Shown here piece by piece: positions 240-14,821 of a stretch of DNA of 64,000 bases. The notes under the pieces are model-generated. The model did not search any database. It saw nothing but the letters and a program-made list of their open reading frames with translations, and was not told the DNA's origin. Position 1 is the stretch's first letter; each line of letters opens with the position of its first letter. The stretch comes from Pseudomonadota bacterium (GTDB lineage Bacteria; Pseudomonadota; Gammaproteobacteria; Steroidobacterales; Steroidobacteraceae), in NCBI GenBank assembly GCA_021807675.1, contig JAKBCR010000003.1, forward strand, positions 1 through 64,000, read 5' to 3'. The translations under genes and the position numbers were made by a program.

Positions 240-1033
240 TAAATAAGCGTGTGAAACACCCTCTGCACGTCGTCGTCCTGCTCGAGCTTGTCGATCAGGG
301 CGAGGACTTCCGCCGCCTGCTCCTCGGGCAGCTCGGTCGGCGCGGTGCTGATGTATTCGTGCTCCGCGGATAGCGGAGTGATGCCGCGCGCCTCGAGAGC
401 CTCCTGCAGCTTGCCGAAATCCGCGAACGCGCAACGGATGACGAGCTGAGGCTTACCGGCTTCGTTTCCGGCCGTGCCACCGGCCGTCCCTGGCGGCAGC
501 GCCCCCGGCCCGGACGTCGTGTCCGCGCGCTCGTCGCTTCGCGACTCGCCCATCTCCTCGAGCCCATGATCGATGAGGTAGAGCTCGAGGTCGTCCTGGT
601 CGATGCCCGCGGGGTCGAGCCGGAAGACTCCCATGCGCTTGAAGAGAAAGGCGACGCTGCCTGAGGTGGCGAGATTGCCGCCGTTCTTGGTGACGATGTT
701 GCGGACCGAGGCGACGGTGCGCGTGGGATTGTCCGTCGCGGCTTCCACCAGCAGCGCCACTCCGTGCGGCGCGTACGCCTCGTAGTGCACTTCGTGGTAG
801 TTGGTCGCATCGCGCCCCGAGGCGCGCTTGATTGCCGCCTCGATCTTGTCCTTGGGCATGTTGACGGCCCGCGCGTTCTGAATCACGCGGCGCAGTGTCG
901 GGTTCGAGGCCGGATCCGGGCCGCCGGACTTCACCGCCATGGTGATGTCCTTGGCGATGCGGGCGAACTGCTTCGCCATGCGGTTCCAGCGCGCAAACAT
1001 CGTGTGTTTGCGGACTTCGAAGATGCGTCCCAT
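239..1033 (-). CDS. YebC/PmpR-family transcription or translation regulator
   Basis: This 264-residue protein belongs to the YebC/TACO1 family, whose members act as DNA-binding regulators or help ribosomes through difficult stretches. The family core is clear: an N-terminal basic segment, then [28 protein letters not shown] and [15 protein letters not shown]. The N-terminus [16 protein letters not shown] is the subtype best known from Bacteroidetes rather than the AGHSKWANIKHRK form usual in Escherichia. A Gly/Ala/Ser-rich linker of about 35 residues near positions 160-193 separates the two halves and looks like an insertion. The stop codon abuts repeat family 1. The desaturase gene lies just upstream on the same strand (15-bp gap), so co-transcription is likely. 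Confidence 0.85.
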
Positions 1034-1048
1034 GGGGGACCTCGCCGG

Positions 1049-2224
1049 TCAGGCGAGCTGCGCCTGCAAGATACGCAAGCGGCGCCGCTGCAGCCGCAGG
1101 CTGCGCTCCAGCTCCTTCAATCGCTGCTGGAAGCTGGCGTGCTCCCAGTGCTCGATGACGGCACGCTTCTTCTCTTCCAGCCACTGCTCCTTTACCTTGG
1201 CCCATTCCGCGACGGCGGCGAGGAACGTGTCGTATTCGTGCGCCACCCTCTGGCGCAGCTCACTGACCCGTGAGGCCGGCGCGATGGCAGGGAGGCTGGC
1301 GAGCTTGCGCTGGGCGCGCGTGAACTGCATCGAGAGCAGCGCCCGCTGGATCTGGAACACGGGAGTGCGCTTCAGCCGGCGGGTGAGCCCGACCACCTGC
1401 AGGCTGGCGATCAGCCACTTCGTCGGATCCCACTGCCACCAGCGCACCCCGTTGCGGTAGTCGTGGGCGAAAATGTGGTGGAAGTTGTGGTAGCCCTCGC
1501 CGAAGGTGAGCACCGCGAGCACCGGATTGTCGCGGGCGGTGTTCTCATCGGTGTACGGGCGCTCGCCCCACATGTGCGCCAGGGAGTTGATGAAGAAGGT
1601 GAAGTGGTGGCTCAGCAGGAGCCGCAGCACGCCGGCGAGGAGGAAGGCTCCCCAGACATCTCCCATCAGCCAGCCGGCGAGGAGCGGCAAGCCGAAATTC
1701 GTGACGAGCACGAGCGGCACATAGTGCCGGTGCTGGAATGCGAGTATGCGATCGCGCCGCAGGTCGGGGATGTTGCTGAAGTCCTCCTGGCCGCTCGGGT
1801 ACTCCCGCACCATCCAGCCGATGTGCGAGAACCAGAAGCCTCGCTGGGCCGAATAGGGGTCGCGGTCGAAGTCATCGACGTGCAGGTGATGCCGGCGGTG
1901 CCCGCTGCACCACGCCCAGGCGGTGTTTTGCAGCGCCATCGAGCCGAAGATCATGAAGAGAAGGCGCAGGCTCCAGTGTGCCTCGTAGGTCCGGTGCGCC
2001 CAGAGCCGATGGTATCCGGCGGTGATCGACATCTCATTGGCGGCGAGGAATACACCGAAGAGCACCCAGGCCGAGGCCGAGAAGCCATGGGTCAGGCCGT
2101 ACCAGGGAACGAGGGTTGCGGCCGCCAAAAAAGTCAATGAAAACAGGAGGGTATTCGTCCAGATCAGAGGCGCCCGGGTCGCGGCAGGGGCGAGGGAGCT
2201 CGGTACGGTGGGACGGGACGGCAT
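1049..2224 (-). CDS. Acyl-CoA/fatty acid desaturase (delta-9 type)
   Basis: This 391-residue membrane di-iron desaturase would introduce a double bond into acyl chains of membrane lipids. The three histidine boxes are present: HRLWAH (residues 72-77), HRRHH (109-113) and a C-terminal EGYHNFHH. Hydrophobic segments precede box 1 and lie between boxes 2 and 3. The reading frame stays open upstream to about 2773, but that part is low-complexity Arg/Pro/Gly-rich and unlike the family, so the start is placed at the ATG of MPSRPTVPSS. After the catalytic domain there is a highly charged, probably coiled-coil tail of about 100 residues (Lys, Glu, Arg and Gln rich), which is not needed for desaturation and is unexplained. 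Confidence 0.88.
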   Translation of the reverse strand: MPSRPTVPSSLAPAATRAPLIWTNTLLFSLTFLAAATLVPWYGLTHGFSASAWVLFGVFLAANEMSITAGYHRLWAHRTYEAHWSLRLLFMIFGSMALQNTAWAWCSGHRRHHLHVDDFDRDPYSAQRGFWFSHIGWMVREYPSGQEDFSNIPDLRRDRILAFQHRHYVPLVLVTNFGLPLLAGWLMGDVWGAFLLAGVLRLLLSHHFTFFINSLAHMWGERPYTDENTARDNPVLAVLTFGEGYHNFHHIFAHDYRNGVRWWQWDPTKWLIASLQVVGLTRRLKRTPVFQIQRALLSMQFTRAQRKLASLPAIAPASRVSELRQRVAHEYDTFLAAVAEWAKVKEQWLEEKKRAVIEHWEHASFQQRLKELERSLRLQRRRLRILQAQLA

Positions 2225-2789
2225 GGTGATCGCGGGCTCCGCAGGGGTGGCCGGTAAAACCGAGTAAACATAGCACGGTTCGCCACCCCGTGGTGAGCCC
2301 CCCCGGGGCGGGTTGGGAGGCCCCGCACGCTTGCCCGCGCGCCGGGCCCGGCGATTCGGGGCCGGGCCGCCGGCCCGCCGGCCCGGGTCGGCCTGCGCCG
2401 GGCGCAAGCGGCGGCGGGCCGCCGCGAGTGCGATCCGGCAACGCTGAAGCTCGGGAGAGCGGTACCGGCGATCGCCTCGCTTCTGCTGGCGCCAGGAGCG
2501 ATTCTTGGCGCTCCACGATGTCAGGTTTCGCGAAGGACACACCGCGTTCCATTGTTGACACACTCGCACGGCGGATTGTGCCGCTCCCTTTGCAAGGCCG
2601 CATTCCGACCGGGTTTGCGGTTGCGGGCCGGTATCCGCGGGTGTATTGATGACGCCCGACAACGCAACCGTGCCAGACATGCGTCGAGAACCATGTCCAC
2701 CCTGGAGGGCGCCGTTTCCCTGCGCGTCATTGGTGGAGGAGCGCCGGAAGCGGCCGTATTTCCGCAATACCAAGAATTTTGGAGGAGAT
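2225..2789. other. Long intergenic region upstream of the xoxF cluster
   Basis: About 565 bp lie between the divergent desaturase and xoxF transcription units. Positions 2300-2440 are extremely GC-rich with many nested GGCC/CCGG palindromes. A TTGACA hexamer is at 2555-2560, but I see no convincing -10 at the right spacing. The region should hold the promoters of both units, and the length leaves room for regulation. No family-like protein is encoded; open frames crossing it are low-complexity. Confidence 0.5.
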
Positions 2790-2879
2790 ATGAGCTACCA
2801 GTTTCGATCCTTGGCCGTCGAGGCGATCGTGATCGCCCGGACGGCAGCTTTCTCAGAGTCAGAGAAGGGGGACATATGA
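2790..2879 (+). CDS. 29-codon leader ORF translationally coupled to xoxF
   Basis: This short ORF begins with ATG, preceded by a strong Shine-Dalgarno (ggaggag, a few bases upstream), and encodes MSYQFRSLAVEAIVIARTAA plus nine more residues ending KGDI. Its TGA stop overlaps the xoxF ATG (ATGA at 2876-2879), the classic layout for translational coupling. I do not recognise the peptide. It lacks the Glu-x3-Tyr pair of PqqA, so it is not an obvious PQQ precursor. It could be a regulatory leader peptide or simply a ribosome loader for xoxF. The ORF and its ribosome site are plain; translation is an inference. Confidence 0.5.
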   Translation: MSYQFRSLAVEAIVIARTAAFSESEKGDI

Positions 2880-4741
2880 AATCACCCAATTGGCGCAGGA
2901 TCCTGGCGCCGGCAGTCATCCTCCTGGCGGCAGGCATAGCCTGCGGAGCGGCTTCGGTCGCGCGAGCCCAGGAAGAGCGCAGTACCGATCTCTGGCCATC
3001 GATGGGTCAGAACTACGCGCTCGATCGGCACAGCGATCTGACGCAGATCAACCCCTCCAACGTGAGCCGGTTGGGAATGATCTGGTCGCAGTCCCTGGGG
3101 GCCCTGCGCGGCCAGGAAGGGCAACCGATCGTCGTCAAGGTCGACGGCACGCCGATGATGTACTTCGTCAGCAGCTGGCCGAACATCGTCCAGGCGTTGA
3201 ATCTGTCGAATCCGGATCATCCTGTCGAGGTCTGGAACTACGTGAAGAAGACCGATCGCGACCTTTCGGCCGTGCCGCGCGCCTGCTGCGACACCGTCAA
3301 TCGCGGTCTGAACTACGCCGACGGCAAGGTTCTCTTCAACACGCTCGACGGATATCTCATCGCGCTCGATGCGAAGACCGGGAAGGTGGACTGGGAGGTC
3401 AAGCACGCCTGGCCCGACAAGGGACAGACCGTCACCAATGCGCCGCTGATCGCGGACGGAAAGGTGATCGTCGGCTTCGGCGGCGATGAGTTCGGCGCGC
3501 GCGGAGCGGTCTCGGCCTATGACCTCTCGGACGGCAAGCTCGTCTGGCATTACTACAGCAACGGCACCGACGAGCAGATCGGCTTCACGCCAGAGACCAA
3601 CAAGTGGAATCCGCAGTACGGCACCTACGGCCACAACCTCGGGTTGACCTATCCCGGTGACGAATGGAAGCGAGGCGGAGGAGCGGCGTGGGCCTGGTAC
3701 AGCTATGACCCGAAGCTCAAGCTCGTGTATTACGGCTCGGGCAATCCCGGCCTATGGAGCCCGTCATATCGCTGCGGCGCCAATCCGCCGACGCAGGAAT
3801 CCTGCAACGACGGAAAATGGGACAACAAGTGGTCGATGACGCTGTTCGCCAGGAACGTCGACACGGGCAAGGTCGTGTGGGCCATGCAGATGACGCCGTT
3901 CGATCAATGGGATTATGACGGTGTCAACGAGCCCATCCTGGTCAACATGAAGATCCACGGCAAGACGGTCCCGACGGTCGTTCAGTTCGATCGCAACGGT
4001 TTCGCCTATGTCTGGAATCGGGCGACCGGCACGCTTCTGGCGGCGCACAAGTACGTCTACACGAACTGGGCGGAGAAGGTCGATCTGCATACCGGCCGCC
4101 CGGTGAAGGTGTACGAGCACTCGCCGTTGCTGGTCAATCAGATGGCCCAGGCATGTCCTTCGGCGATGGGCGGCAAGGATCAACAGCCGGCATCCGTCGA
4201 TCCGGCGGACCCGGAGGTCTTCTTCGTACCGACCAACAATTGGTGCATGCAGGACACCCCGCAGAAGCGTACGGACATTCAGCAGGGCATAGTCTACGTC
4301 TTTGCCAACGTCTACATGTACGAGCACAAGCCTGGTATCGCGGGCCGCCTGAAGGCGTTCAACGTGCTGACGGGCAAGACGCTGTGGAACGTCCCGGACA
4401 AGTATCCGGACTGGGGCGGGACGCTCAATACCAGCGGTGGCGTCGTATTCTACGGCAGCTTGGGCGGCGATTTCCGCGCCGTCGACATGAAGACCGGCAA
4501 GGTCCTCTGGGAGCGCAAGCTCGGCTCCGGGATCATCGGCAACCCGATCACCTATGAGATCGACGGGCACCAGTACGTGTCGGTCTTCGCAGGTATCGGC
4601 GGCTGGATCGGGCTGCCCATCACGGCGGGCCTCGATCTCAACGACAAGTATGGAGCGATCGGAGCGACGGCGATGGCCAAGGCAACTCACCTGAACCTGA
4701 TACCCCAGGGCGGTGAGCTGTACACCTTCCGCCTGATGTGA
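2876..4741 (+). CDS. xoxF: PQQ-dependent methanol/alcohol dehydrogenase, XoxF-type (lanthanide signature)
   Basis: This 621-residue periplasmic quinoprotein oxidises a primary alcohol and passes electrons to a cytochrome c. A signal peptide ends near residue 31 (SVARA-QEE). The adjacent cysteines that form the vicinal disulfide over PQQ are C137-C138. Metal and catalytic residues fit the family: E205, N290 and D346 in WDYDGVN. The second aspartate two residues on (D348) is the hallmark of lanthanide-binding XoxF/PedH enzymes; calcium-binding MxaF has alanine there. Between N290 and the DNKW motif a short insertion carries two extra cysteines (C300, C310). The start is chosen at 2876 because aagggggac precedes it and a signal peptide follows; the frame is open further upstream. 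The exact alcohol cannot be read from sequence. Confidence 0.92.
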   Translation: MKSPNWRRILAPAVILLAAGIACGAASVARAQEERSTDLWPSMGQNYALDRHSDLTQINPSNVSRLGMIWSQSLGALRGQEGQPIVVKVDGTPMMYFVSSWPNIVQALNLSNPDHPVEVWNYVKKTDRDLSAVPRACCDTVNRGLNYADGKVLFNTLDGYLIALDAKTGKVDWEVKHAWPDKGQTVTNAPLIADGKVIVGFGGDEFGARGAVSAYDLSDGKLVWHYYSNGTDEQIGFTPETNKWNPQYGTYGHNLGLTYPGDEWKRGGGAAWAWYSYDPKLKLVYYGSGNPGLWSPSYRCGANPPTQESCNDGKWDNKWSMTLFARNVDTGKVVWAMQMTPFDQWDYDGVNEPILVNMKIHGKTVPTVVQFDRNGFAYVWNRATGTLLAAHKYVYTNWAEKVDLHTGRPVKVYEHSPLLVNQMAQACPSAMGGKDQQPASVDPADPEVFFVPTNNWCMQDTPQKRTDIQQGIVYVFANVYMYEHKPGIAGRLKAFNVLTGKTLWNVPDKYPDWGGTLNTSGGVVFYGSLGGDFRAVDMKTGKVLWERKLGSGIIGNPITYEIDGHQYVSVFAGIGGWIGLPITAGLDLNDKYGAIGATAMAKATHLNLIPQGGELYTFRLM

Positions 4742-4747
4742 TAGATC

Positions 4748-4787
4748 ATGGCACCTTGCGGGAGCCGCGGCTCCCGCAGGGTGCCAT
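4748..4787 (+). terminator. Strong hairpin after xoxF
   Basis: A 17-bp stem (atggcacc..gcgggag with its complement, one G-T pair) closes on a ccgcgg loop, starting 7 bp after the xoxF stop codon. There is no U-run after it, so it may act as an mRNA-stabilising or partial-termination structure that leaves xoxF expressed above the downstream genes, rather than a full terminator. Confidence 0.6.
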
Positions 4788-4883
4788 GCTTGCCCCCGTT
4801 CGCGGCGCCTGACCGGAAGAGCGCGGGAACAGGATGGTTGTCCTCGAGTCCAAGGTTATGCGACTCTCAGTCCAGGGTGCCCG

Positions 4884-6674
4884 ATGCCGGTTATGTCGCG
4901 ATCTGCCCGCTGCGCGCTGTCAGCGGCCGCTTTGGTGATCACCGCGGTTCTCGTCTCGACCGCGTTTGCTGACACGGCCCCGCCCCGGACGGCGACTCGC
5001 TCGGGCTATCTGCAGGGGCCCTGGGCCGGCAAGGACTTCGACCAGCTGGATCAAGCGGAAATAGATGCGGCCAGGCAAGCCGCTCTGACCGCCCGCTTCC
5101 GCGTCCTTCGCGTCTGCGCGGACCCCGGCAACATGCCCCTTTCCGATCGCAAGCGGCAAGGGTACGAGAACAAGATTCTCGACGTTCTCGCCAAGGCCCT
5201 CGGCGCCAGGCTGAGCTACTACTGGCGTGCGTACACCGGCAACGTCGTCGGTGAGGCATTCGGAACCGCCGACGAGTGCGATCTTCTGATCGACATGCCC
5301 GTTCATGCCGAAGGGATCCTGACGACCGTTCCGATTTACCGTACGACCTATGTGCTCGTGTGGCGGAGCGATGAGCACCTTGACATCAAGAGCCTGAGCG
5401 ATCCGAGGCTGAAGCGACTGCGAGTGGGGGTGTTCCAGATCTCCGCACTGCGCCGGGCGCTCGCGGACCATGGCGTCGTATCAAACGTGAAGGTCTGGCC
5501 GGTGGCGAGCGACACGGAGTGGGTCCCGGCGCATCAGCCGTGGAATCAGGTCGAGGAGGTGGTCGATGGCAAGCTTGACGTCGCCGCCGCGTGGGGGCCC
5601 ATGGCCGGTTGGCTGAAGACCATGAAAGGGGCGCCGATCACCATCCAGCCCACGAATCTCATGGACAACGACATCCCGATGGAATTCAGCCTAGGGATTG
5701 GCGTGCCCCCTCAGGACGTGGTGCTGAAATTTGCGCTCGACGACGCACTCAGGGCGCATCGGGCCGAGATCCAGAGCATCCTGGACCGATACGGCGTGCC
5801 GCTGGTGAAGTGCGCCGACTGTGTCATCCCGGGTGACCTTCCGGCGCATGGCAGCTACATGCTGCACATCTCCCCGGCCGACACCGGCAAGCCGACGCAC
5901 TGGGCCGTTTCGCGGGCACAGGTCGACAAGTGGCTGGCGGAAGGGTCGAGCGTCAACAAGGAGCTTTGGGATGCCGTACTCGCCAATGACGTCGATCGCG
6001 CTGCCTATCTGATCGGCAAGGGCGCCGACGTCAACAAGCTGAGCAATCTGGGCACCTCGCCGCTGACCGTGGCCGCCCGTGCCGGCTGCATCCCCATGAT
6101 GCAGCTTCTCGTCGCGCACGGGGCGAAAGTGGACCAGCCGGACAGCGACGGATCGACGGCGCTCATGGGCGCGGTCATGCGAAATCAGATCAAGGCCATA
6201 AAATTCCTGCTGGCGCATGGCGCAAACCTCCACAAGGGCGCGCCTCCCGGCTTCACGCTCCTGTCGCTCGCCCTGGAGGAGCAGCAGTACGATGCCGCAT
6301 ACGCTCTCATCAAAGCGGGCGCGGACGTGAACACCCCGGCCAGCAAGTACCGGCTGACACCGCTCATGGTGATCGCGAGCGAGCTGCCGCCGGGACCGGA
6401 AAGCAGGGTCAGGATGTTCCAGGACCACACGCCGATGGACGTCGCCCGCGCCTTGCTCGAGCGCAAGGCGAACGTCAACGCGACCGACACCGCCGGAGTG
6501 ACCGCGCTCATGATTGCAGCCGCGCATGATAATTCCCCCATGATCGCTCTGCTGATTCAAGGGGGCGCGAATCCGCACATGAAGTCGGCGGCGGGCCAGA
6601 CGGCGCGTGAGATCGCGGTCGAGAACGGCAATCTCGACGCCGAACGGGCCTTCAGTCTGCTGGTTCCGAATTAG
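4884..6674 (+). CDS. MoxJ/XoxJ-like periplasmic binding protein fused to ankyrin repeats
   Basis: This 596-residue exported protein has a signal peptide in the first 30 residues, then a solute-binding-protein domain (about 50-320). Its FRVLRVCADPGNMPLSD and CDLLIDMPV segments match the quinoprotein-dehydrogenase-associated family (MoxJ/XoxJ). XoxJ is known to interact with XoxF and is thought to help its maturation. From about residue 355 to 590 there are roughly six ankyrin repeats (for example GADVNKLSNLGTSPLTVAAR, GAKVDQPDSDGSTALMGAVM, NVNATDTAGVTALMIAAA). I know of no standard family with this fusion. It lies 142 bp after xoxF and 43 bp before the cytochrome gene. Two in-frame ATGs (4884, 4893) are possible starts. 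Role: probably assembly or activation partner of the dehydrogenase, with the ankyrin part as a binding platform. Confidence 0.85.
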   Translation: MPVMSRSARCALSAAALVITAVLVSTAFADTAPPRTATRSGYLQGPWAGKDFDQLDQAEIDAARQAALTARFRVLRVCADPGNMPLSDRKRQGYENKILDVLAKALGARLSYYWRAYTGNVVGEAFGTADECDLLIDMPVHAEGILTTVPIYRTTYVLVWRSDEHLDIKSLSDPRLKRLRVGVFQISALRRALADHGVVSNVKVWPVASDTEWVPAHQPWNQVEEVVDGKLDVAAAWGPMAGWLKTMKGAPITIQPTNLMDNDIPMEFSLGIGVPPQDVVLKFALDDALRAHRAEIQSILDRYGVPLVKCADCVIPGDLPAHGSYMLHISPADTGKPTHWAVSRAQVDKWLAEGSSVNKELWDAVLANDVDRAAYLIGKGADVNKLSNLGTSPLTVAARAGCIPMMQLLVAHGAKVDQPDSDGSTALMGAVMRNQIKAIKFLLAHGANLHKGAPPGFTLLSLALEEQQYDAAYALIKAGADVNTPASKYRLTPLMVIASELPPGPESRVRMFQDHTPMDVARALLERKANVNATDTAGVTALMIAAAHDNSPMIALLIQGGANPHMKSAAGQTAREIAVENGNLDAERAFSLLVPN

Positions 6675-6717
6675 GCGGCGGCACACCATACCGGTAGTCA
6701 ATCGGAGGAATCACTTT

Positions 6718-7239
6718 ATGACGCGCTTCGCTGGCGTAGTTGCTTTGGTTTCGGCGGTGATCGTGGCGGCGGGATGCTGGCTGCTCGCGCCATCCCGTGC
6801 CGAAGCCGCTTCCCCACCGCCCTTCAAGTTGACCGCCGCCGTCTTGAGCCAGCCGCCGGTGCAAGTCGTTGCCGAGGCCCCCAAGGGGTCGCTTCACAAT
6901 CCCTACAATGGCAATCCCAAGATCGCCAAAGAGGGCCACAAGCTGTTTTTCGATTACGGCTGCAGCGGCTGTCACGGCGGCGGTGGAGGCGGAGGCATGT
7001 GTCCGCCGCTCATCAATGGCGTCTGGATCTACGGTGGGAGCGACGATACCCTCTTCCGTCTCATCTCACTCGGGTCAGATAAGCTTCACAAGGCAGGTTA
7101 CCACCGGCAAGCCCTGGAGAGTGTCATCGCCCCGATGCCGCAGATGGGCCTCCTGATCCACCACGCCAGCGATGTATTCAAGATCATCACCTGGCTCCGC
7201 TCGGCCTATCAGGGGCCTCCGGGTCACAAGTACCACTGA
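6718..7239 (+). CDS. Cytochrome c, XoxG/PedF-like electron acceptor
   Basis: A 173-residue exported mono-haem cytochrome c. The signal peptide ends near SRAEA (about residue 30), the haem site is CSGCH (C82, C85, H86), and M140 or M143 in MPQMG is the likely distal ligand. A glycine run follows the haem site. Small class I cytochromes of this kind take electrons from PQQ alcohol dehydrogenases (XoxG, PedF, c-550). The ATG is preceded by a good ribosome site (cggagga). Position directly behind xoxF and the MoxJ-like gene supports the role. Confidence 0.87.
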   Translation: MTRFAGVVALVSAVIVAAGCWLLAPSRAEAASPPPFKLTAAVLSQPPVQVVAEAPKGSLHNPYNGNPKIAKEGHKLFFDYGCSGCHGGGGGGGMCPPLINGVWIYGGSDDTLFRLISLGSDKLHKAGYHRQALESVIAPMPQMGLLIHHASDVFKIITWLRSAYQGPPGHKYH

Positions 7240-7252
7240 GCGCCGCACGATC

Positions 7253-8476
7253 GTGCGACGGCCGACTCGCGTACTCGGGCTGCTCACGCTGGCTTTGCTG
7301 GCCGGCGTGTGCCAGTCCTTCTGGGCACCCGGCGCGACGGCTCACGCGGCGGTGCGAAATTTCGCGATCACCTTCCTGCGCAAGAAATATCACTTCAATC
7401 CTGAGATCCTGCCGTCGCTCCTCGAGACGCATCCGTCCAATCTGGGACTGGCCGGCGCGCAGGAGGCGATTTACGAGATCAATACCGCCGGCAAGTTCAT
7501 AGGGTGGAACTTCAAGCTGAATGTCGTGACCGTCCCGGACGGCGGTAACCTCGCCGCCGCGGCAGGGCAGCTGCTCGCGCAGGGTCCCAAGGTCATCATT
7601 GCCGACCTCCGTCCCGACGACCTTTTGACTCTCGCCGATTTGCCGTCCGCGAAGGATGCATTGATCCTCGACATGCGGACGACCGAGGATCGCCTGCGGC
7701 AGCAGGAGTGTCGGGCGAACGTGTTTCACCTGCTTCCCAACCAGGCGATGCGGACGGATGCGATCGCTCAATACCTGATATGGAAGCGCTGGCCCCGGTG
7801 GTTCATCATCCAGGGCCCCACGAAGGAGGATGCGGTCTATGCGGCGGACATTCGCCGCTCGGCCGCCCGCTACGGCGCCCACATCGTCGCGGAGAAGACC
7901 TACGACTACAATCCCGGCTCGCGCCGCAGCGACACCGGCTATCAGCAGATCCAGACGCAGATGCCGCTCGCGACAGAGGTCGGAGGCGATTACGACGTGA
8001 TATTCGTCGCGGACGAGACCGATCTCTTCGGCGATTATCTCCCCTACAACACCTATGCGGCGCGTCCCGTCGTGGGGACCCAAGGGCTCGTGGCGAGCGC
8101 CTGGACCCCGGCCTACCAGGAATATGCCGCGCTGCAGATGCAGCAGAGGTTCGATCTCTTCGCCCATCGGGGCATGACCGAGCGCGACTATGGTGGCTGG
8201 CTCGCCGTCAAGATCATCGGCAACGCCGTCATGCGCGCGGACAAGACCTCGCCGATGCCGATGCGCAAGTACCTGCGGTCCAAGGACTTCCTCGTCGCCG
8301 GCTACAAGGGGCAGGGTTTGACCTTTCGCCGCTGGGACAACCAGCTGCGTCAGCCGGTACTGCTGTCGACGCCGCTGATGACCGTCTCCATGTCGCCGCA
8401 GCACGGCTTTCTCCATCCGGGGTACACGACCGATACCCTGGGCTTCGATGAGCCGGAGACGAAATGCCATTTCTAG
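7253..8476 (+). CDS. ABC substrate-binding protein of PQQ-alcohol-dehydrogenase systems
   Basis: This periplasmic protein has about 407 residues from a GTG at 7253, with a signal peptide (VLGLLTLALLAGVC, then AHAA). The body resembles branched-chain-amino-acid-type binding proteins (Peripla_BP_6 fold) found beside PQQ alcohol dehydrogenases; PedA of Pseudomonas belongs to this group. An ATG at 7172 would also keep the frame but overlaps the cytochrome gene by 68 bp and puts 27 residues before the signal peptide, so the GTG 13 bp past the cytochrome stop is preferred. It overlaps the next gene by 13 bp. Likely job: ligand capture for the PedBC-like ABC pair at 12050-13644. The ligand may be a lanthanide complex, PQQ or the alcohol. 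Confidence 0.75.
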   Translation: MRRPTRVLGLLTLALLAGVCQSFWAPGATAHAAVRNFAITFLRKKYHFNPEILPSLLETHPSNLGLAGAQEAIYEINTAGKFIGWNFKLNVVTVPDGGNLAAAAGQLLAQGPKVIIADLRPDDLLTLADLPSAKDALILDMRTTEDRLRQQECRANVFHLLPNQAMRTDAIAQYLIWKRWPRWFIIQGPTKEDAVYAADIRRSAARYGAHIVAEKTYDYNPGSRRSDTGYQQIQTQMPLATEVGGDYDVIFVADETDLFGDYLPYNTYAARPVVGTQGLVASAWTPAYQEYAALQMQQRFDLFAHRGMTERDYGGWLAVKIIGNAVMRADKTSPMPMRKYLRSKDFLVAGYKGQGLTFRRWDNQLRQPVLLSTPLMTVSMSPQHGFLHPGYTTDTLGFDEPETKCHF

Positions 8477-9453
8477 GGACGACCGGACGCCGCACCGCAC
8501 CGGTCGTATTGGCCGCAGTCCTGTGCTCCTTCGCCGCGATGGTGCGCGCCAGCGAGCTCTTCGTCACGAACGAGATCGACGACACGGTGACGGTCCTCAA
8601 CGGCGATACCTACAAGGTGATCGCGACCATCCCCACGGATCAGCGGCCCAGGGGGATCTTTGCGACTCCGGACCACAAGTACGTCCTGGTCTGCGACGGT
8701 GACTCGAGCAACATCGATGTCATCGATACGAAGACCTTGAAGGTGGTGCGCAGGATCGAGACCGGCCCGGACCCCGAGACGCTGGCGATGTCCCCTTCGG
8801 GCGACAAGGTCTACGTGTCCAACGAGAACAATGCACTGGTCACGGTCATCAATTTCGCCACGGGCAAGTGGATCACGCAGATCCCGGTCGGAATCGAGCC
8901 GGAAGGTCTCGCCGTCACCCAGCACGGGCGGACCGTGGTGGTGGTCTCCGAGACGACCAGCATGGCGCATTTCATCGACACGAAAACCTGGAAGGTCGTG
9001 GCCAATGTTCTCGTCGATACGAGGCCGAGGATTGCGCAGTTCACCCGCGATCAGCGCTTGCTCTGGGTCTCTTCGGAGGTCGGCGGAACGGTCTCGGTCA
9101 TCAATCCGCGCAGCCATCAGATCGTACACGTCATAAACTTCCACATTCCGGGTGTCGACAAGGAGTACATCGGGCCCGTCGGGGTACGCTTCACGCCCGA
9201 CGACCGAACCGCGTTCGTAGCCTTGGGGCGCGCCAATCGGGTTGCGGTAATCGATGCCAGGACCTACAAGGTCGAGAAGTACATTCTGGTCGGACAGCGC
9301 CCCTGGCAGATCGCCTTCAGCCCGAATCACAAGAGGCTCTTCGTCGTGAACGGTCTCACGAATGACGTGACGATCATCGATGTGTCGTCCCTGGAAGCCA
9401 AGAAGTCCGTTCCTGTCGGCCGACTGCCGTGGGGCATCGCCGTCGTCCCGTGA
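8464..9453 (+). CDS. PQQ-system-associated YVTN beta-propeller protein
   Basis: This 329-residue exported protein has a signal peptide (APVVLAAVLCSFAAMVRA) and about seven blades built from repeats such as ELFVTNEIDDTVTVLNGDTY, KVYVSNENNALVTVINFATG and RLFVVNGLTNDVTIIDVSSL. It matches the beta-propeller family that accompanies PQQ-dependent catabolism and ABC genes (Ped and Lut clusters). The fold suits periplasmic scaffolding or metal and ligand binding; no enzymatic residues are evident. The ATG overlaps the upstream gene by 13 bp, and the stop overlaps the next GTG, so the genes are tightly coupled. Confidence 0.83.
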   Translation: MPFLGTTGRRTAPVVLAAVLCSFAAMVRASELFVTNEIDDTVTVLNGDTYKVIATIPTDQRPRGIFATPDHKYVLVCDGDSSNIDVIDTKTLKVVRRIETGPDPETLAMSPSGDKVYVSNENNALVTVINFATGKWITQIPVGIEPEGLAVTQHGRTVVVVSETTSMAHFIDTKTWKVVANVLVDTRPRIAQFTRDQRLLWVSSEVGGTVSVINPRSHQIVHVINFHIPGVDKEYIGPVGVRFTPDDRTAFVALGRANRVAVIDARTYKVEKYILVGQRPWQIAFSPNHKRLFVVNGLTNDVTIIDVSSLEAKKSVPVGRLPWGIAVVP

Positions 9454-10460
9454 GATCCTTGCGCGCGCGGCCCGTCCGTGTGGTGTGGTGCGTCCGCTGG
9501 GTGTTCATCACGTTTTTCGCGGTTATGGCTGCCGGACGCGCGCACGCGCGCGCGGAGCCCACGCTGCGCATCGGCGTGTTGAAATTCGGCACCGTGAGCT
9601 GGGTCATGGATGTCATTGCCCATCACGGGCTCGCCAAAGCGAACGGTATTCGCATCGACGAGCTGGCGCTCGCGAGCACTCAGGCGACCCTGGTGGCCCT
9701 GCAGGCGGGGCGCGTCGATTGCGTGGTGACGGACTGGCTGTGGGTGTCGCGCCAGCGCGCCGCCGGGGCGGATTGGACATTCTTTCCGTTTTCGACCGAC
9801 CTCGGCGCGCTGATCGCGGCGCGCGGCGCGCCGATTCATCGGCTGGTGGATCTGCGCAATCGCCGGCTCGGCGTGGCCGGCAGTCCGCTCGACAAGAGCT
9901 GGGTGATCCTGCAGGCGCTTGCGCGCGAGCAGCACATCGACCTCGCGCGGGACGCGCAAATCTCGTTCGGCGCCCCGCCGCTTCTCGATCAGGAGCTGCT
10001 GGAGGGCCGCCTCGATGCGGTGCTGACGTACTGGAACTTCGCCGCGCGGCTCGAGAGCCGCGGCCTGCCGCTCGTGCTGTCGATGCGCGACGGCCTGCGG
10101 GAGCTTGGCTTCAAGACCGCGATTCCACTCGTGGGCTATGTCGTGTCCGACCGGTGGGCACGGCAGCATCCCGCCGTATTGGCGGGATTCGTGCGCGCCA
10201 CGCGTCAGGCGGAGTCGATCCTCGCGACATCGAATGCGGAATGGGACTGGCTCGGGCCGAGAATCAGGGCACGCGATCCTGCGCAGCTCAAGGCGCTGCG
10301 TGAGGCGTTCCGTGCCGGCATTCCGGCCCATTGGGGCAAGGACGAGCGGCGCGAGGCCGAGGCGCTGTATGCGCTCTTCGCCAGGATCGGCGGTAAAACT
10401 CTGGTCGGCTCCAGCGCGACCCTGCAGCCCGGAACCTTCCTCGACGGGGTACGCTACTGA
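9450..10460 (+). CDS. NitT/TauT-type ABC transporter substrate-binding protein
   Basis: A 336-residue exported binding protein of the NrtA/SsuA/TauA superfamily. After a signal peptide come TLRIGVLKFGTVSWVMDVIA, a core with the typical ALQAGRVDCVVTDWLW, and a LGVAGSPLDKSWVILQALAR segment. The GTG start overlaps the propeller stop (GTGA). An ATG at 9429 is the alternative but sits inside the upstream gene. It forms a complete importer with the permease and ATPase that follow. Members import small anions, sulfonates, pyrimidine precursors or similar; the substrate here is unknown. Its place inside a PQQ dehydrogenase operon is the main clue. Confidence 0.82.
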   Translation: MRSLRARPVRVVWCVRWVFITFFAVMAAGRAHARAEPTLRIGVLKFGTVSWVMDVIAHHGLAKANGIRIDELALASTQATLVALQAGRVDCVVTDWLWVSRQRAAGADWTFFPFSTDLGALIAARGAPIHRLVDLRNRRLGVAGSPLDKSWVILQALAREQHIDLARDAQISFGAPPLLDQELLEGRLDAVLTYWNFAARLESRGLPLVLSMRDGLRELGFKTAIPLVGYVVSDRWARQHPAVLAGFVRATRQAESILATSNAEWDWLGPRIRARDPAQLKALREAFRAGIPAHWGKDERREAEALYALFARIGGKTLVGSSATLQPGTFLDGVRY

Positions 10461-10461
10461 A

Positions 10462-11247
10462 ATGAGCGTGGCCCCCTCCGCGCAGCGCACATCGTCCTGG
10501 CGGGTGACATCCTCGCTCGCGCAGCGTGTCGGCTCTGTCGCCCTCTTCATCGCCGTATGGCAGATCGCGGCCGATGTCGCCCACAGCCGGCTGCTGCCCT
10601 CGGCCAGCGCCGTCTTCATCGCCCTGGTGCAACAGAGCGTGCACGGGCCGTTGCTCTTCAATCTCGGTATCACCCTGGCCCGCGTCGCGGCCGCCTTCGT
10701 CGTGGCGATGGTCATCGGCACGGCGATCGGTATCGTGATGGGCCGGTCGCGGACCATAGATGCGCTCTTCGACAGCTGGCTCGTGCTGCTGCTCAACCTG
10801 CCGGCACTCGTCATCATCGTGCTGGCCTATGTCTGGTTCGGCCTCACCGAGGCGGCGGCCATCGGCGCCGTGGCCGTCAACAAGATCCCGGCCGTCGCGG
10901 TGACGCTGCGCGAAGGTGCCCGCGCGCTCGACCCGAGCTATTCGGAGATGTCGGAGAGCTTCCATGTCAGCCGGTGGCGGACGCTTCGGCACGTGATCAT
11001 GCCGCAGCTCTATCCTTATATCTTCGCGTCCGCGAGGTCGGGCCTGGCGCTCGTATGGAAGATCGTGCTCATCGTGGAGCTCCTGGGGCTGAGCAACGGC
11101 GTCGGCTTCGAGATCCAACTCTACTTCCAGCAGTTCGACGTGACCCACATCCTGGCCTACACCATCGCCTTCGTGGCTGTCGTCCAGCTGATCGAGTGGG
11201 CGGTGTTCCAGCCGCTCGAGCGGCGCGCGGGGCGGTGGCGCCAGTGA
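10462..11247 (+). CDS. NitT/TauT-type ABC transporter permease
   Basis: A 261-residue inner-membrane protein with about six transmembrane segments and the binding-protein-dependent permease core. The EAA-like loop (EMSESFHVSRWRTLRHVIMP), where the ATPase docks, is at about residues 165-185. ATG at 10462 begins right behind the stop of the binding protein; a longer frame upstream overlaps that gene and is rejected. The stop overlaps the ATPase GTG (GTGA). It belongs to the SsuC/TauC/NrtB family and pairs with the genes on either side. Confidence 0.85.
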   Translation: MSVAPSAQRTSSWRVTSSLAQRVGSVALFIAVWQIAADVAHSRLLPSASAVFIALVQQSVHGPLLFNLGITLARVAAAFVVAMVIGTAIGIVMGRSRTIDALFDSWLVLLLNLPALVIIVLAYVWFGLTEAAAIGAVAVNKIPAVAVTLREGARALDPSYSEMSESFHVSRWRTLRHVIMPQLYPYIFASARSGLALVWKIVLIVELLGLSNGVGFEIQLYFQQFDVTHILAYTIAFVAVVQLIEWAVFQPLERRAGRWRQ

Positions 11248-12014
11248 CACCGGCCCTGGTCGCGGATATCCGCGAAAAGCGCTATCCGGGCGCGCGCGGG
11301 GCGAAGTCTCACGTGGCGCTGGCCGACCTCTCGCTGCAGGTGGCGGTAGGCGAGATCGTGGCGCTCGTCGGTCCGTCCGGCTGCGGCAAGACGACGTTCC
11401 TCAACATCGTGGCCGGGCTCGACCGGAATTTCGCCGGCGACGTCCGACTCACCCCGCGGGCCGATGGCCAGCCGGCGCGGGTCGGCTACGTCTTTCAGGA
11501 GCCACGCCTGCTTCCGTGGCGAACGGTCTGCGAGAACATCGCCCTCGTCCTGCCGCAGCATCGCGCCGATGCCGTCGTCAGGGACATGTTGAATGCGGTG
11601 GGCCTGGCCGAGGCGCGCGATCGTTATCCGCCGCAGCTGTCGGTCGGGATGAGCCGCCGCGTATCCATCGCGCGCGCCTTTGCGATCGAGCCGGACCTGC
11701 TGCTGATGGATGAGCCCTTCGTCTCGCTCGACCACGACACGGTAGAGCAGCTGCGAAACCTCTTGCTCAAGCTGTGGCGCGCGCGGCCGACGACCGTCCT
11801 CTTCGTGACCCATGATCTGCGCGAGGCGCTGGTTCTCGCCGACCGTCTGGTGCTGTTGTCAGCCTCGCCGGCCCATGTGGTGGCCGACCTTCCGGTGAGC
11901 CTGGCGCGCAATCGCCGCGAGAGCGGCCCCGAGATCGAGCGGCTGCGCGAGGAAGTCCTGCGTTACCACCGGGAGCTGATCGGCGCCGCAGGGGCGGCGA
12001 CCCCGGTCGAATGA
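11244..12014 (+). CDS. NitT/TauT-type ABC transporter ATP-binding protein
   Basis: A 256-residue ABC ATPase with Walker A GPSGCGKTT, Q-loop FQEPRLLPW, Walker B LLLMDEPFVSLD and switch histidine in FVTHD. The signature reads LSVGMSRR where most relatives have LSGGM(R/Q)QR, so the second signature position is valine, a substitution worth noting for activity. GTG at 11244 overlaps the permease stop; GTG at 11235 is also in frame. The protein energises the importer of 9450-11247. The next ABC gene starts 35 bp later and belongs to a different ABC subfamily. Confidence 0.85.
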   Translation: MTPALVADIREKRYPGARGAKSHVALADLSLQVAVGEIVALVGPSGCGKTTFLNIVAGLDRNFAGDVRLTPRADGQPARVGYVFQEPRLLPWRTVCENIALVLPQHRADAVVRDMLNAVGLAEARDRYPPQLSVGMSRRVSIARAFAIEPDLLLMDEPFVSLDHDTVEQLRNLLLKLWRARPTTVLFVTHDLREALVLADRLVLLSASPAHVVADLPVSLARNRRESGPEIERLREEVLRYHRELIGAAGAATPVE

Positions 12015-12049
12015 TAAGCTGTATCATGCCCATGAGGCGGTGAAGCGCG

Positions 12050-12841
12050 ATGTTGGACCTCAAAGCAGGGGTGGCGGATCGAGGGGCCGAAAGGGTACCC
12101 GGCCGGGAAGCGCCGCCGCTCATCGTCGAGGGACTCAGCCACTCGTTCGGTAAGCGCGAGGCCCTGCGCAGCGTGTCCTTCAAACTCGATCGGGGCGATC
12201 GCACGATGCTGCTCGGATTGAATGGCGCGGGCAAGACGACCCTCTTCTCCCTCATCACCCGGCTCTACAACCATCGCAGCGGCTCGATCCGGATCTTCGG
12301 GTGGAAGATCAAGGAGAACCCCTCCGAAGCGCTCGCCCGGCTGGGCGTGGTGTTCCAGCTGCCGACCCTCGATCTCGAGCTGTCGGTTGCCCAAAACCTC
12401 TACTATCACGCCGCTCTGCACGGCCTGCCGCGCCGCGAGGCCGGCGTCCGCCTCAGGCGTGAGATCGAGCGCGTCGGGTTGACCGAGCGGCTGCGTGAGC
12501 ATGCGCGCACCTTGAGCGGCGGACAGCGCCGCCGCGTGGAGATCGCACGTGCCCTGGTCCATCAGCCGAGACTGCTGCTGCTAGACGAGCCGACGGTGGG
12601 GTTGGACGTTGCGAGCCGTCAGTTCCTGCTCGATCACGTCCGCATGCTGTGTCGCGAGGAAGGGATCGCCGCCCTGTGGGCGACCCATCTGATCGACGAG
12701 GTCGATTCCGCCGCACGCGTGATAGTGCTGCACCAGGGACGGATCCTCGCCGAAGGCCCGGTGCCGGAGGTGATCCGCCGCGCGAATGCGTCGTCGATGC
12801 GCGAGGCGTTCGACAAGCTGACCGGTGAGCGGGGCGAATGA
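12050..12841 (+). CDS. ABC-2-type ATPase of PQQ-alcohol-dehydrogenase system (PedB-like)
   Basis: A 263-residue ABC ATPase of the kind encoded with PQQ-dependent alcohol dehydrogenases. Walker A is GLNGAGKTT, signature LSGGQRRRVEIARAL, Walker B LLLLDEPTVGLD, and the H-loop ATHL. Start ATG follows ggtgaag. It overlaps the permease by the ATGA at 12838-12841. Relatives (PedB in P. putida, LutE in Methylobacterium) belong to transporters required for efficient growth with lanthanide-dependent dehydrogenases, so lanthanide handling is the favoured hypothesis; export of a product or cofactor is the alternative. Confidence 0.83.
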   Translation: MLDLKAGVADRGAERVPGREAPPLIVEGLSHSFGKREALRSVSFKLDRGDRTMLLGLNGAGKTTLFSLITRLYNHRSGSIRIFGWKIKENPSEALARLGVVFQLPTLDLELSVAQNLYYHAALHGLPRREAGVRLRREIERVGLTERLREHARTLSGGQRRRVEIARALVHQPRLLLLDEPTVGLDVASRQFLLDHVRMLCREEGIAALWATHLIDEVDSAARVIVLHQGRILAEGPVPEVIRRANASSMREAFDKLTGERGE

Positions 12842-13644
12842 AAGCCGTCCACTATTACCGCTGCATGCGCGGCATCGTCTGGCGCGAGGCCCTGCGCTTC
12901 CTCAACCAGCGCGGCCGTTTCCTCGCGGCTCTGGTGCGGCCGCTGGTGTGGCTGCTGATCTTCGCCACCGGATTTCGCTTCGTGCTCGGCGTTTCGATCA
13001 TTCCGCCCTATCAGACCTACATCCCCTATCAGGTGTACATCGCGCCGGGCCTGATCGGCATGATCATCATGTTTCAAGGCATGCAGAGCTCGCTGTCGAT
13101 GGTGTGGGACCGCGAGACGGGCAGCATGCGCACGCTTCTGGTGAGCCCGCTGCCGCGCTGGTATCTCCTGGCCTCCAAGCTGATTGCGGCGGTGATCGTC
13201 TCGGTCCTGCAGGCGTACGTCTTCCTTGGCATCGCCTATTTCTGGGGAGTTCATCCGCCGCGCCTCGGATATCTCACCGTGCTTCCGGCCTTGATCCTCG
13301 CGGGCATGATGCTGAGCGCGCTCGGCCTCTTCCTCTCGTCCGTGATCCGCCAGCTCGAGAATTTCGCGGGCGTGATGAATTTCGTGATTTTCCCGATGTT
13401 CTTCGCCTCGTCCGCCCTCTACCCCCTCTGGACGGTGCAGCAGGCGAACGAGCGGCTCTACCAGATCTGCATGGCCAATCCGTTCACGCATGCGGTCGAG
13501 CTGATCCGCTTCGCGCTGTACGAGAAGTTCAATCTCGAGGCGTTCGCGGTCGTCGCCGGGTCTCTCATCGTCTTCATGGTCCTGGCGGTCATGGGTTACG
13601 ATCCCGGGCGCGGGCTCATCGCCCGGCGCGGGGGCGGCGAATGA
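12838..13644 (+). CDS. ABC-2-type permease (PedC-like)
   Basis: A 268-residue inner-membrane permease of the ABC-2 class with six predicted membrane segments and the conserved loop MVWDRETGSMRTLLVSPLPR after the second. It matches the permease family named after PedC of phenylethanol-degrading Pseudomonas. It overlaps its ATPase (ATGA) and is the last gene of the long plus-strand cluster, followed 11 bp later by a terminator hairpin. The binding protein at 7253 and propeller at 8464 are the probable periplasmic partners, although the NitT/TauT module sits between them. Confidence 0.83.
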   Translation: MKAVHYYRCMRGIVWREALRFLNQRGRFLAALVRPLVWLLIFATGFRFVLGVSIIPPYQTYIPYQVYIAPGLIGMIIMFQGMQSSLSMVWDRETGSMRTLLVSPLPRWYLLASKLIAAVIVSVLQAYVFLGIAYFWGVHPPRLGYLTVLPALILAGMMLSALGLFLSSVIRQLENFAGVMNFVIFPMFFASSALYPLWTVQQANERLYQICMANPFTHAVELIRFALYEKFNLEAFAVVAGSLIVFMVLAVMGYDPGRGLIARRGGGE

Positions 13645-13696: not shown

Positions 13697-14821
13697 TTAG
13701 AATTTGTACACCCCCTGCAGCGCGACTTCGGTCTGGTTGCCGCTGTAGACCGTCACCGGGCTCACTGCCTTGACGAAGGTGGGTTCGCTCGAAGTGTCGT
13801 ACCGGCCCTCGAGCCGCAGCTCGAAGTCCGACACCGGATCGTAGCCCACGGTGATCGTGCCTTCCTTCAAGATTTGTCGCGTGCCGGTCACCAGCGTCGT
13901 GCCGTTCTTGTCGTCGAGATACTCGCCACGCAGTGACACGCGCCACTGGCTGCTCAGCTGGTAGTTGACGTAACCGGCGACTCCCTCCCAATCTCCGCCG
14001 GTGAGGTTGCCCGGGGTCGCGGCGCTCGTCTCCTGCTTGCCCCAGTCGTAGCTCACCACGAACGAGAGGCTCGAGGTCGCATTGAGCGTGGCGACGGTGT
14101 CGAAGAAGGTCCGCTCCGCGCCATATACCGGGTCCTTCCCGGCGTAGACCTGCGCCGTAAGCGAGAAATACTTGTTGGGATTCAGGGCAATCCCGAACTC
14201 GCCGGTCTTCGAGCCGTAGTTGATCTTGGTGTAGTTCCACCCGTTGTTGATGCCTACGATCACGCTCACCGTGTCCGTGACCGCGTACGTCGCGCGCAGT
14301 CCGGTATGGGTCATCGGCTCGGCGAAGAAGAGAAGCGAGCGCGAGAAATTGGTGTTGCCCGTGGGCGCGATGACCTCGGCGCCCGCCAGCGTCGTGAACT
14401 TTCCGGCCTGGATCGTGAGCGGTCCGGTCACGTACTGCGCGTAGCCCTGCAGGATGTCGAAGGCGTGGGTGGGAGCCGGGAAGGGGTTGCTCGCGCTCGC
14501 GCTCTCCGCAGCATTGACGATCTTCGCGTCCTCACCGGCGATCAGGTCCACCACCGCCCCGAAGCCCGACTTCGGCTGATAGCCGAGCGTCAGGCCCGCC
14601 TGGTCGAGCTGAAAAGTGTCGTGCGAAGTGTCGAACTGGTGGTCGGTGTTGTAGCCGGAGGAGTGGTAGTAGGAGGCAGCCACATAGCCGGACTCCGTGA
14701 TGCCGGAGTTGGCCAGCACCTGGGACAAGGTGGAGCCGGCTGCGAGCGCGCCCGCCGGCGCGGCACCGGCGGCGGCGATGGCTGCCGTAATGTGGATTCG
14801 CTGCAACAGAGACTTCTGCAT
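13697..14821 (-). CDS. Putative beta-barrel outer membrane porin (BBP2/OmpL-like)
   Basis: A 374-residue secreted protein with a signal peptide (AAAIAAAGAAPAGALAA) followed by alternating polar and apolar strands typical of a porin and ending in the outer-membrane signature VALQGVYKF with terminal Phe. The early motif GYVAASYYHSS and the QAGKFTTLAGAEVI and NFSRSLLFF segments fit the putative beta-barrel porin-2 family. It lies convergent to the xoxF cluster and has its own promoter-like region upstream. It may supply small solutes to the periplasm, but a link to alcohol oxidation is only positional. Confidence 0.78.
   Translation of the reverse strand: MQKSLLQRIHITAAIAAAGAAPAGALAAGSTLSQVLANSGITESGYVAASYYHSSGYNTDHQFDTSHDTFQLDQAGLTLGYQPKSGFGAVVDLIAGEDAKIVNAAESASASNPFPAPTHAFDILQGYAQYVTGPLTIQAGKFTTLAGAEVIAPTGNTNFSRSLLFFAEPMTHTGLRATYAVTDTVSVIVGINNGWNYTKINYGSKTGEFGIALNPNKYFSLTAQVYAGKDPVYGAERTFFDTVATLNATSSLSFVVSYDWGKQETSAATPGNLTGGDWEGVAGYVNYQLSSQWRVSLRGEYLDDKNGTTLVTGTRQILKEGTITVGYDPVSDFELRLEGRYDTSSEPTFVKAVSPVTVYSGNQTEVALQGVYKF

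Follow-up and report, generated by a model that had tools for sequence, protein, structure and literature searches.

A XoxF1-type dehydrogenase locus with an ankyrin-tailed XoxJ and predicted lanthanide and PQQ importers in an uncultured soil bacterium

Genes at the locus

The window analysed here is 64,000 nt in length (contig JAKBCR010000003.1, positions 1–64,000, assembly GCA_021807675.1) and comes from an uncultured soil bacterium assigned to the Steroidobacteraceae. It has a block of ten co-directional genes on the forward strand (positions 2876–13644). The block begins with a gene for a pyrroloquinoline quinone (PQQ)-dependent alcohol dehydrogenase and includes genes for redox partners and for two ATP-binding cassette (ABC) transport systems. 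The host genome is a metagenome-assembled genome of 430 contigs and 5.1 Mb and is 97% complete. Intergenic gaps are 142 bp or less and several genes overlap. These short gaps and overlaps on one strand suggest an operon, and the ten genes are probably transcribed as a unit. Promoter and terminator scans of the cluster show no signal above chance, and an Rfam search gave no matches.

Family assignments were made with TIGR and Pfam profile models judged against curated cut-offs, and six of the ten genes score above the cut-off of their family models. The same gene order is present in the own-genus loci that are long enough to display it, which argues that the arrangement is not due to chance. 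Two loci, L044 and L045, carry the second ABC set in reverse orientation inside the XoxF1 locus, as would be expected of a self-contained module. An earlier note, made from the sequence of this DNA, listed on the same strand as the dehydrogenase a MoxJ-like protein, a cytochrome c, a PedA-type binding protein, a beta-propeller and a PedBC pair, as well as a second ABC system; the TIGR and Pfam models bear out the first five, and the second ABC system is present at 9429–12014. The note took the cluster for a single lanthanide-capture and alcohol-oxidation unit. This holds in that XoxF1, its redox partners and a Ped/Lut importer are in one block, but the second ABC system is of the PqqT type, as described below.

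The dehydrogenase

The first gene (2876–4741, +; TIGR03075) encodes a protein of 621 aa. The start had been placed at position 2790, but the ATG is at 2876. With numbering from this ATG, D346 is the catalytic Asp and D348, two residues past it, is the additional, lanthanide-coordinating Asp, in agreement with the D-x-D motif as first numbered. The closest solved structure is PDB 7O6Z (777 bits, 58.7% identity), which is XoxF1 from Methylacidimicrobium thermophilum AP8. It is followed by XoxF2, XoxF5 and MxaF, and then by ethanol-dehydrogenase types near 290 bits. In a tree of 90 sequences, made by a quick method with SH-aLRT support only and with no XoxF3, XoxF4, PedH or ExaF reference, the enzyme is inside the XoxF1 clade (support 99–100) and not with XoxF2, XoxF5 or MxaF. 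The tree thus rules out a placement with the calcium-type MxaF enzymes; a PedH/ExaA-type placement was rejected on bit scores alone. The Asp described as diagnostic of XoxF1 (Asp172 in AP8; PMC8546591) is present as D204, where the XoxF2, XoxF5 and MxaF rows have Gly or Ala. It is found in all XoxF1 relatives with letters at that position except one (L061), which has Asn. By these sequence properties the dehydrogenase is of the XoxF1 type. No further XoxF and no MxaF were found in the host genome, where the other matching quinoproteins are quinohemoprotein alcohol dehydrogenases.

The exception, L061 from Methyloceanibacter marginalis, is a XoxF1 paralog with no XoxJ nearby, and Verrucomicrobia bacterium LP2A likewise has a second XoxF1 (L088) without a nearby XoxJ. 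Seven loci of genus relatives (L028, L030 and L033–L037) have a distinct XoxF-like enzyme with the motif DGWD[YF]DG and about 45% identity to the window enzyme. It comes with a short XoxJ and sometimes replaces XoxF1.

The XoxJ-ankyrin fusion

The second gene (4884–6674, +) encodes a protein of 596 aa with a signal-like N-terminus, a XoxJ/MxaJ domain (residues 75–308; TIGR03871, 235 bits, cut-off 212), a CxxC linker and ankyrin repeats at approximately residues 361–586, matched by Ank families. The C-terminal CxxC and ankyrin repeats escaped the earlier note; the repeats were found in the domain search. Characterised XoxJ and MxaJ proteins have a single domain of about 250–300 aa; the protein encoded here, beside a methanol dehydrogenase gene, is a longer fusion variant. 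The AlphaFold model (pLDDT 87.7, pTM 0.56) displays two confident domains whose relative position is uncertain. Foldseek places XoxJ (6ONP) and MxaJ among the top matches of the model, together with ankyrins.

The fusion is a single reading frame in every XoxF1 locus with an intact XoxJ (in L082 the contig end truncates it). All 52 fusions found over all loci, from Proteobacteria, Binatota and Verrucomicrobia, are beside XoxF1, and none of the 20 short XoxJ/MxaJ genes with an identifiable neighbour is. The loci were collected partly via XoxF1, so that the weight is carried by the short forms and by a search with TIGR03871 through 15 whole genomes, themselves chosen for having XoxF1. Both kinds are present in these genomes, the short forms by XoxF5 or MxaF and the long fusions by XoxF1.

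A literature search for ankyrin with XoxJ or quinoproteins found nothing relevant in open-licence PMC, although subscription papers could hold it; the clade-wide fusion is apparently undescribed and is the most interesting part of the cluster. Most likely the ankyrin domain gives XoxJ a further surface for docking proteins, one peculiar to the XoxF1 system. Docking of the XoxJ domain itself on XoxF1 is supported by 9ISM, in which MxaJ is in complex with MxaF. The tail has no known function and has evolved faster than the XoxJ domain (42% against 52% mean pairwise identity), as might be expected if it were a neutral passenger, present since the ancestral XoxF1 cluster and without a role in XoxF1 function. 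Such a passenger is quite unlikely, given that the tail is retained in all intact XoxF1-linked XoxJ proteins of the three groups, that CxxC is present in 51 of the 52 fusions and that several ankyrin positions are invariant. More tentatively, the docking role may extend to every XoxF1 system, each built around an ankyrin-tailed XoxJ as a periplasmic adaptor. The XoxJ domain would hold XoxF1 and the ankyrin domain would recruit a second partner, which could be the cytochrome or the proteins that deliver PQQ or lanthanide. The atypical metal behaviour of XoxF1 relative to XoxF5 might stem from this arrangement, but the proposal as a whole has somewhat less than an even chance of being correct.

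The cytochrome and the Ped/Lut genes

The third gene (6718–7239, +) encodes a XoxG-like cytochrome c of 173 aa with a single CxxCH, above the cut-off for PF00034. All four components of a PedA1A2BC/Lut system follow, each over the cut-off of its model: a PedA1/LutA-type periplasmic binding protein (7253–8476, +; TIGR03863), a PedA2/LutB-type YVTN beta-propeller (8464–9453, +; TIGR03866), a PedB/LutE-type ABC ATPase (12050–12841, +; TIGR03864) and a PedC/LutF-type ABC-2 permease (12838–13644, +; TIGR03861, 404 bits, cut-off 241). Homologous systems matter for lanthanide-dependent growth (PedA1A2BC, PMC6839425; Lut, PMC7391723), as the earlier note stated, and by analogy these genes represent a predicted lanthanide importer.

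Convergent with the cluster is a BBP2-family porin gene (13697–14821, −), which is retained alongside in five genus loci. The porin could be an entry route for alcohol or metal. A TonB-dependent receptor with a carboxypeptidase-regulatory-like N-terminal domain is encoded at a distance from the cluster (50544–52871, −).

The second ABC system

The second ABC set consists of a substrate-binding protein (SBP) with an NMT1 fold (9429–10460, +), a BPD_transp_1 permease (10462–11247, +; PF00528) and a taurine/nitrate-like ATPase (11244–12014, +; PF00005). The permease gene accompanies the SBP gene in most other loci, and the ATPase gene accompanies both. The window SBP sequence alone matches the PqqT structures 9b1u, 9b1v and 9ooz at 5e-63, and a profile of its orthologs matches 9B1U and 9B1V at 4e-98. 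Foldseek with the predicted SBP model gives PqqT with PQQ at 2.5e-34, and the next family, SsuA, at 6e-16. A Lys in an LDK motif (K156), taken to correspond to K142 of the PQQ pocket of PqqT by an inferred match of the numbering, is conserved in 29 of 30 orthologs. PqqT of M. extorquens is a periplasmic PQQ-binding protein with a dissociation constant of 50 nM (PMC12124388). The second SBP, closest to PqqT in both sequence and modelled fold, is therefore classed as a PqqT ortholog with predicted PQQ binding, and the three genes as a predicted PQQ importer; transport, and its inward direction, are part of that prediction. A taurine/nitrate/sulfonate importer or a lanthanophore importer was considered and dropped, as the ortholog profile fits the PqqT structures far above other families. 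A literature search for NitT/taurine systems with lanthanide found nothing relevant in open-licence PMC, although subscription papers could hold it.

Membership in the PqqT family implies a purpose other than lanthanide uptake for the second ABC system, and the pair is best interpreted as a lanthanide system plus a PQQ system. That both capture lanthanides is highly improbable. The two sets are adjacent, and in 9B1V the PQQ-bound PqqT also holds Gd3+, so that a PQQ-lanthanide complex is conceivable as a ligand. However, the SBP is a PqqT ortholog, and the 50 nM affinity of PqqT for PQQ compares with only micromolar affinity for La3+ via PQQ (PMC12828617).

The distribution of the PqqT-like gene follows that of PedC. 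With PqqT-like homologs counted at E 1e-30 or better and PedC over its cut-off, homologs are present in 19 of 369 Gammaproteobacteria, all among the 21 that are PedC-positive, and in 38 of 398 Pseudomonadota, all among the 56 that are PedC-positive (Fisher p 7e-30 and 1e-39, uncorrected for relatedness; the two samples overlap by a few genomes). The two genes are within 15 kb of each other in 25 of 37 cases. Within the genus, the second SBP is present in all tested genomes with a closely related XoxF1 and in none of the rest, which matches the presence of PedC exactly. Eighteen further loci, the majority picked for proximity, all have the SBP beside PedABC genes and many have it beside XoxF5/XoxJ5. 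They include Hyphomicrobium zavarzinii, Hyphomicrobium sp. NDB2Meth4, Methylocella silvestris TVC and Methyloceanibacter marginalis. Where dehydrogenases were found near the PqqT cassette in other gammaproteobacteria, all are of the lanthanide-type D-x-D kind.

In two gammaproteobacteria of one family (L160 and L161) the PqqT-like gene is directly before PedB and PedC with no matching permease beside it, and PqqT might work with PedBC there. The Ped/PqqT locus L163 (flanks at 309–3437 and 10608–13556) has SoxYZ-like, metallo-beta-lactamase, SBP and cytochrome genes on one flank, and cytochrome and TonB-dependent receptor genes on the opposite flank. Two genus relatives, G048 (99% complete) and G055 (95%), have XoxF1 and the PqqT cassette but no PqqC match, and are possible PQQ auxotrophs that scavenge the cofactor.

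Metal use and physiology

The earlier note deduced lanthanide use from the D-x-D motif, and this was overstated. XoxF1 of Methylacidimicrobium thermophilum AP8 binds Nd (PMC8546591), but that of Ca. Methylomirabilis oxyfera is reported as apparently Ca-containing, and in Methylocella silvestris XoxF1, which has XoxG, XoxJ and adjacent LutBAH homologs, is lowered or repressed upon La addition (PMC9291206). D-x-D as proof of lanthanide use was accordingly rejected; it does not settle the metal in XoxF1, and a lanthanide is the predicted metal of the window enzyme. We infer that XoxF1 and the Lut genes may form a lanthanide-scarcity set.

The host genome has seven further D-x-D enzymes, quinohemoprotein alcohol dehydrogenases (L002–L008, on contigs C9, C426, C203, C337, C5 and C307) with an Asp two residues past the catalytic Asp (WDYD). 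In the solved homologs 1KV9, 1YIQ and 1KB0, aligned to one of the seven, this position is Thr. The seven may be additional lanthanide-type enzymes, and the Asp implies that the lanthanide importer may serve them as well. Together with the Ca and La reports, they favor an alternative in which the window enzyme uses calcium in vivo, or either metal, and the Ped/Lut genes chiefly serve these other dehydrogenases. This is unlikely, since the closest solved relative is Nd-bound, D346 and D348 are both present, and the Lut-type genes are within the same gene block as xoxF1.

A fae gene was not found in the window genome or in 14 genus members, so H4MPT-linked formaldehyde oxidation is not evident and methanol growth cannot be claimed.

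Proposed function and significance

The block is very probably a XoxF1-type operon with its own redox partners and with predicted lanthanide and PQQ importers. In the periplasm XoxF1 would oxidise methanol or some other short alcohol and the XoxG-like cytochrome c would receive the electrons, with the XoxJ domain docked on XoxF1 as MxaJ is on MxaF. Lanthanide would enter the cell by way of the PedA1A2BC/Lut-type proteins, PQQ would be captured and imported by the PqqT-permease-ATPase set, and both would thus be supplied from one operon.

Several points weigh against this interpretation. The cytochrome scores only 41 bits with the MoxG/cL model TIGR03872, below the cut-off; the metal of XoxF1 is disputed in the literature (PMC9291206); methylotrophic growth is unproven without fae; and the host is known from an assembled genome, the function of the operon being predicted from its genes. 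The need for PQQ import is also not obvious. As the earlier note observed, mxaF and PQQ biosynthesis genes are absent from the window; no mxaF-type gene was found in the genome, and its sole pqqC match is on another contig, C405, alongside pqqB, pqqD and pqqE. Import into the cytosol is, moreover, odd for a periplasmic cofactor. Recapture of leaked PQQ would be the simplest idea for an importer in a PQQ maker.

XoxF1 is one of the XoxF types that are less well understood, and reports on its metal conflict; the ankyrin fusion offers a concrete handle on this question. PqqT-like genes are linked to PedC in more than 20 Pseudomonadota families, a pattern that suggests joint inheritance of PQQ capture and lanthanide import. 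ABC genes next to lut/ped that are usually annotated as taurine/NMT1-like can be reread as a predicted PQQ system, and an uncultured Steroidobacteraceae-like soil genus gains a testable alcohol-oxidising role.

Comparison with known systems

The 7O6Z enzyme of AP8 shares the D-x-D motif and the diagnostic Asp with the window enzyme, but is from a different phylum and has Cys240 where the window enzyme has A270. PedA1A2BC of Pseudomonas putida KT2440 (PMC6839425) and lut of Methylorubrum extorquens AM1 (PMC7391723) have the same SBP, YVTN protein, ATPase and ABC-2 permease as the window. Those systems serve PedH or XoxF5, whereas the window set is linked to XoxF1 and has the PqqT-type set inserted between the propeller and ATPase genes. 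The PqqT of AM1 (9B1U, 9B1V, 9OOZ; PMC12124388) has about 41% identity to the window SBP over the model, the same fold and the LDK motif; the window SBP differs in that its gene, together with those for a dedicated permease and ATPase, is part of a XoxF1 operon, and its PQQ binding is predicted.

The xoxF1 cluster of Methylocella silvestris (Msil_3146-3149; PMC9291206) is similar in that xoxF1 is accompanied by its own xoxJ and xoxG and by adjoining LutB and LutA homologs, and strain TVC (L050) also has an ankyrin-tailed XoxJ. There, however, the PedB/PedC and PqqT genes are together at another locus (L211), and a TonB receptor is beside xoxF1; the window has one block with no adjacent TonB receptor. 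XoxJ (6ONP) and MxaJ (5SV6, 9ISM) have the fold and family of the window N-terminal domain, and each is encoded beside its dehydrogenase. The CxxC linker and ankyrin domain of the window XoxJ are absent from all XoxJ/MxaJ proteins examined beside XoxF5, MxaF or other XoxF. The locus is a known kind of XoxF1 cluster in a new form, with predicted lanthanide and PQQ importers together and an apparently undescribed ankyrin fusion on XoxJ.

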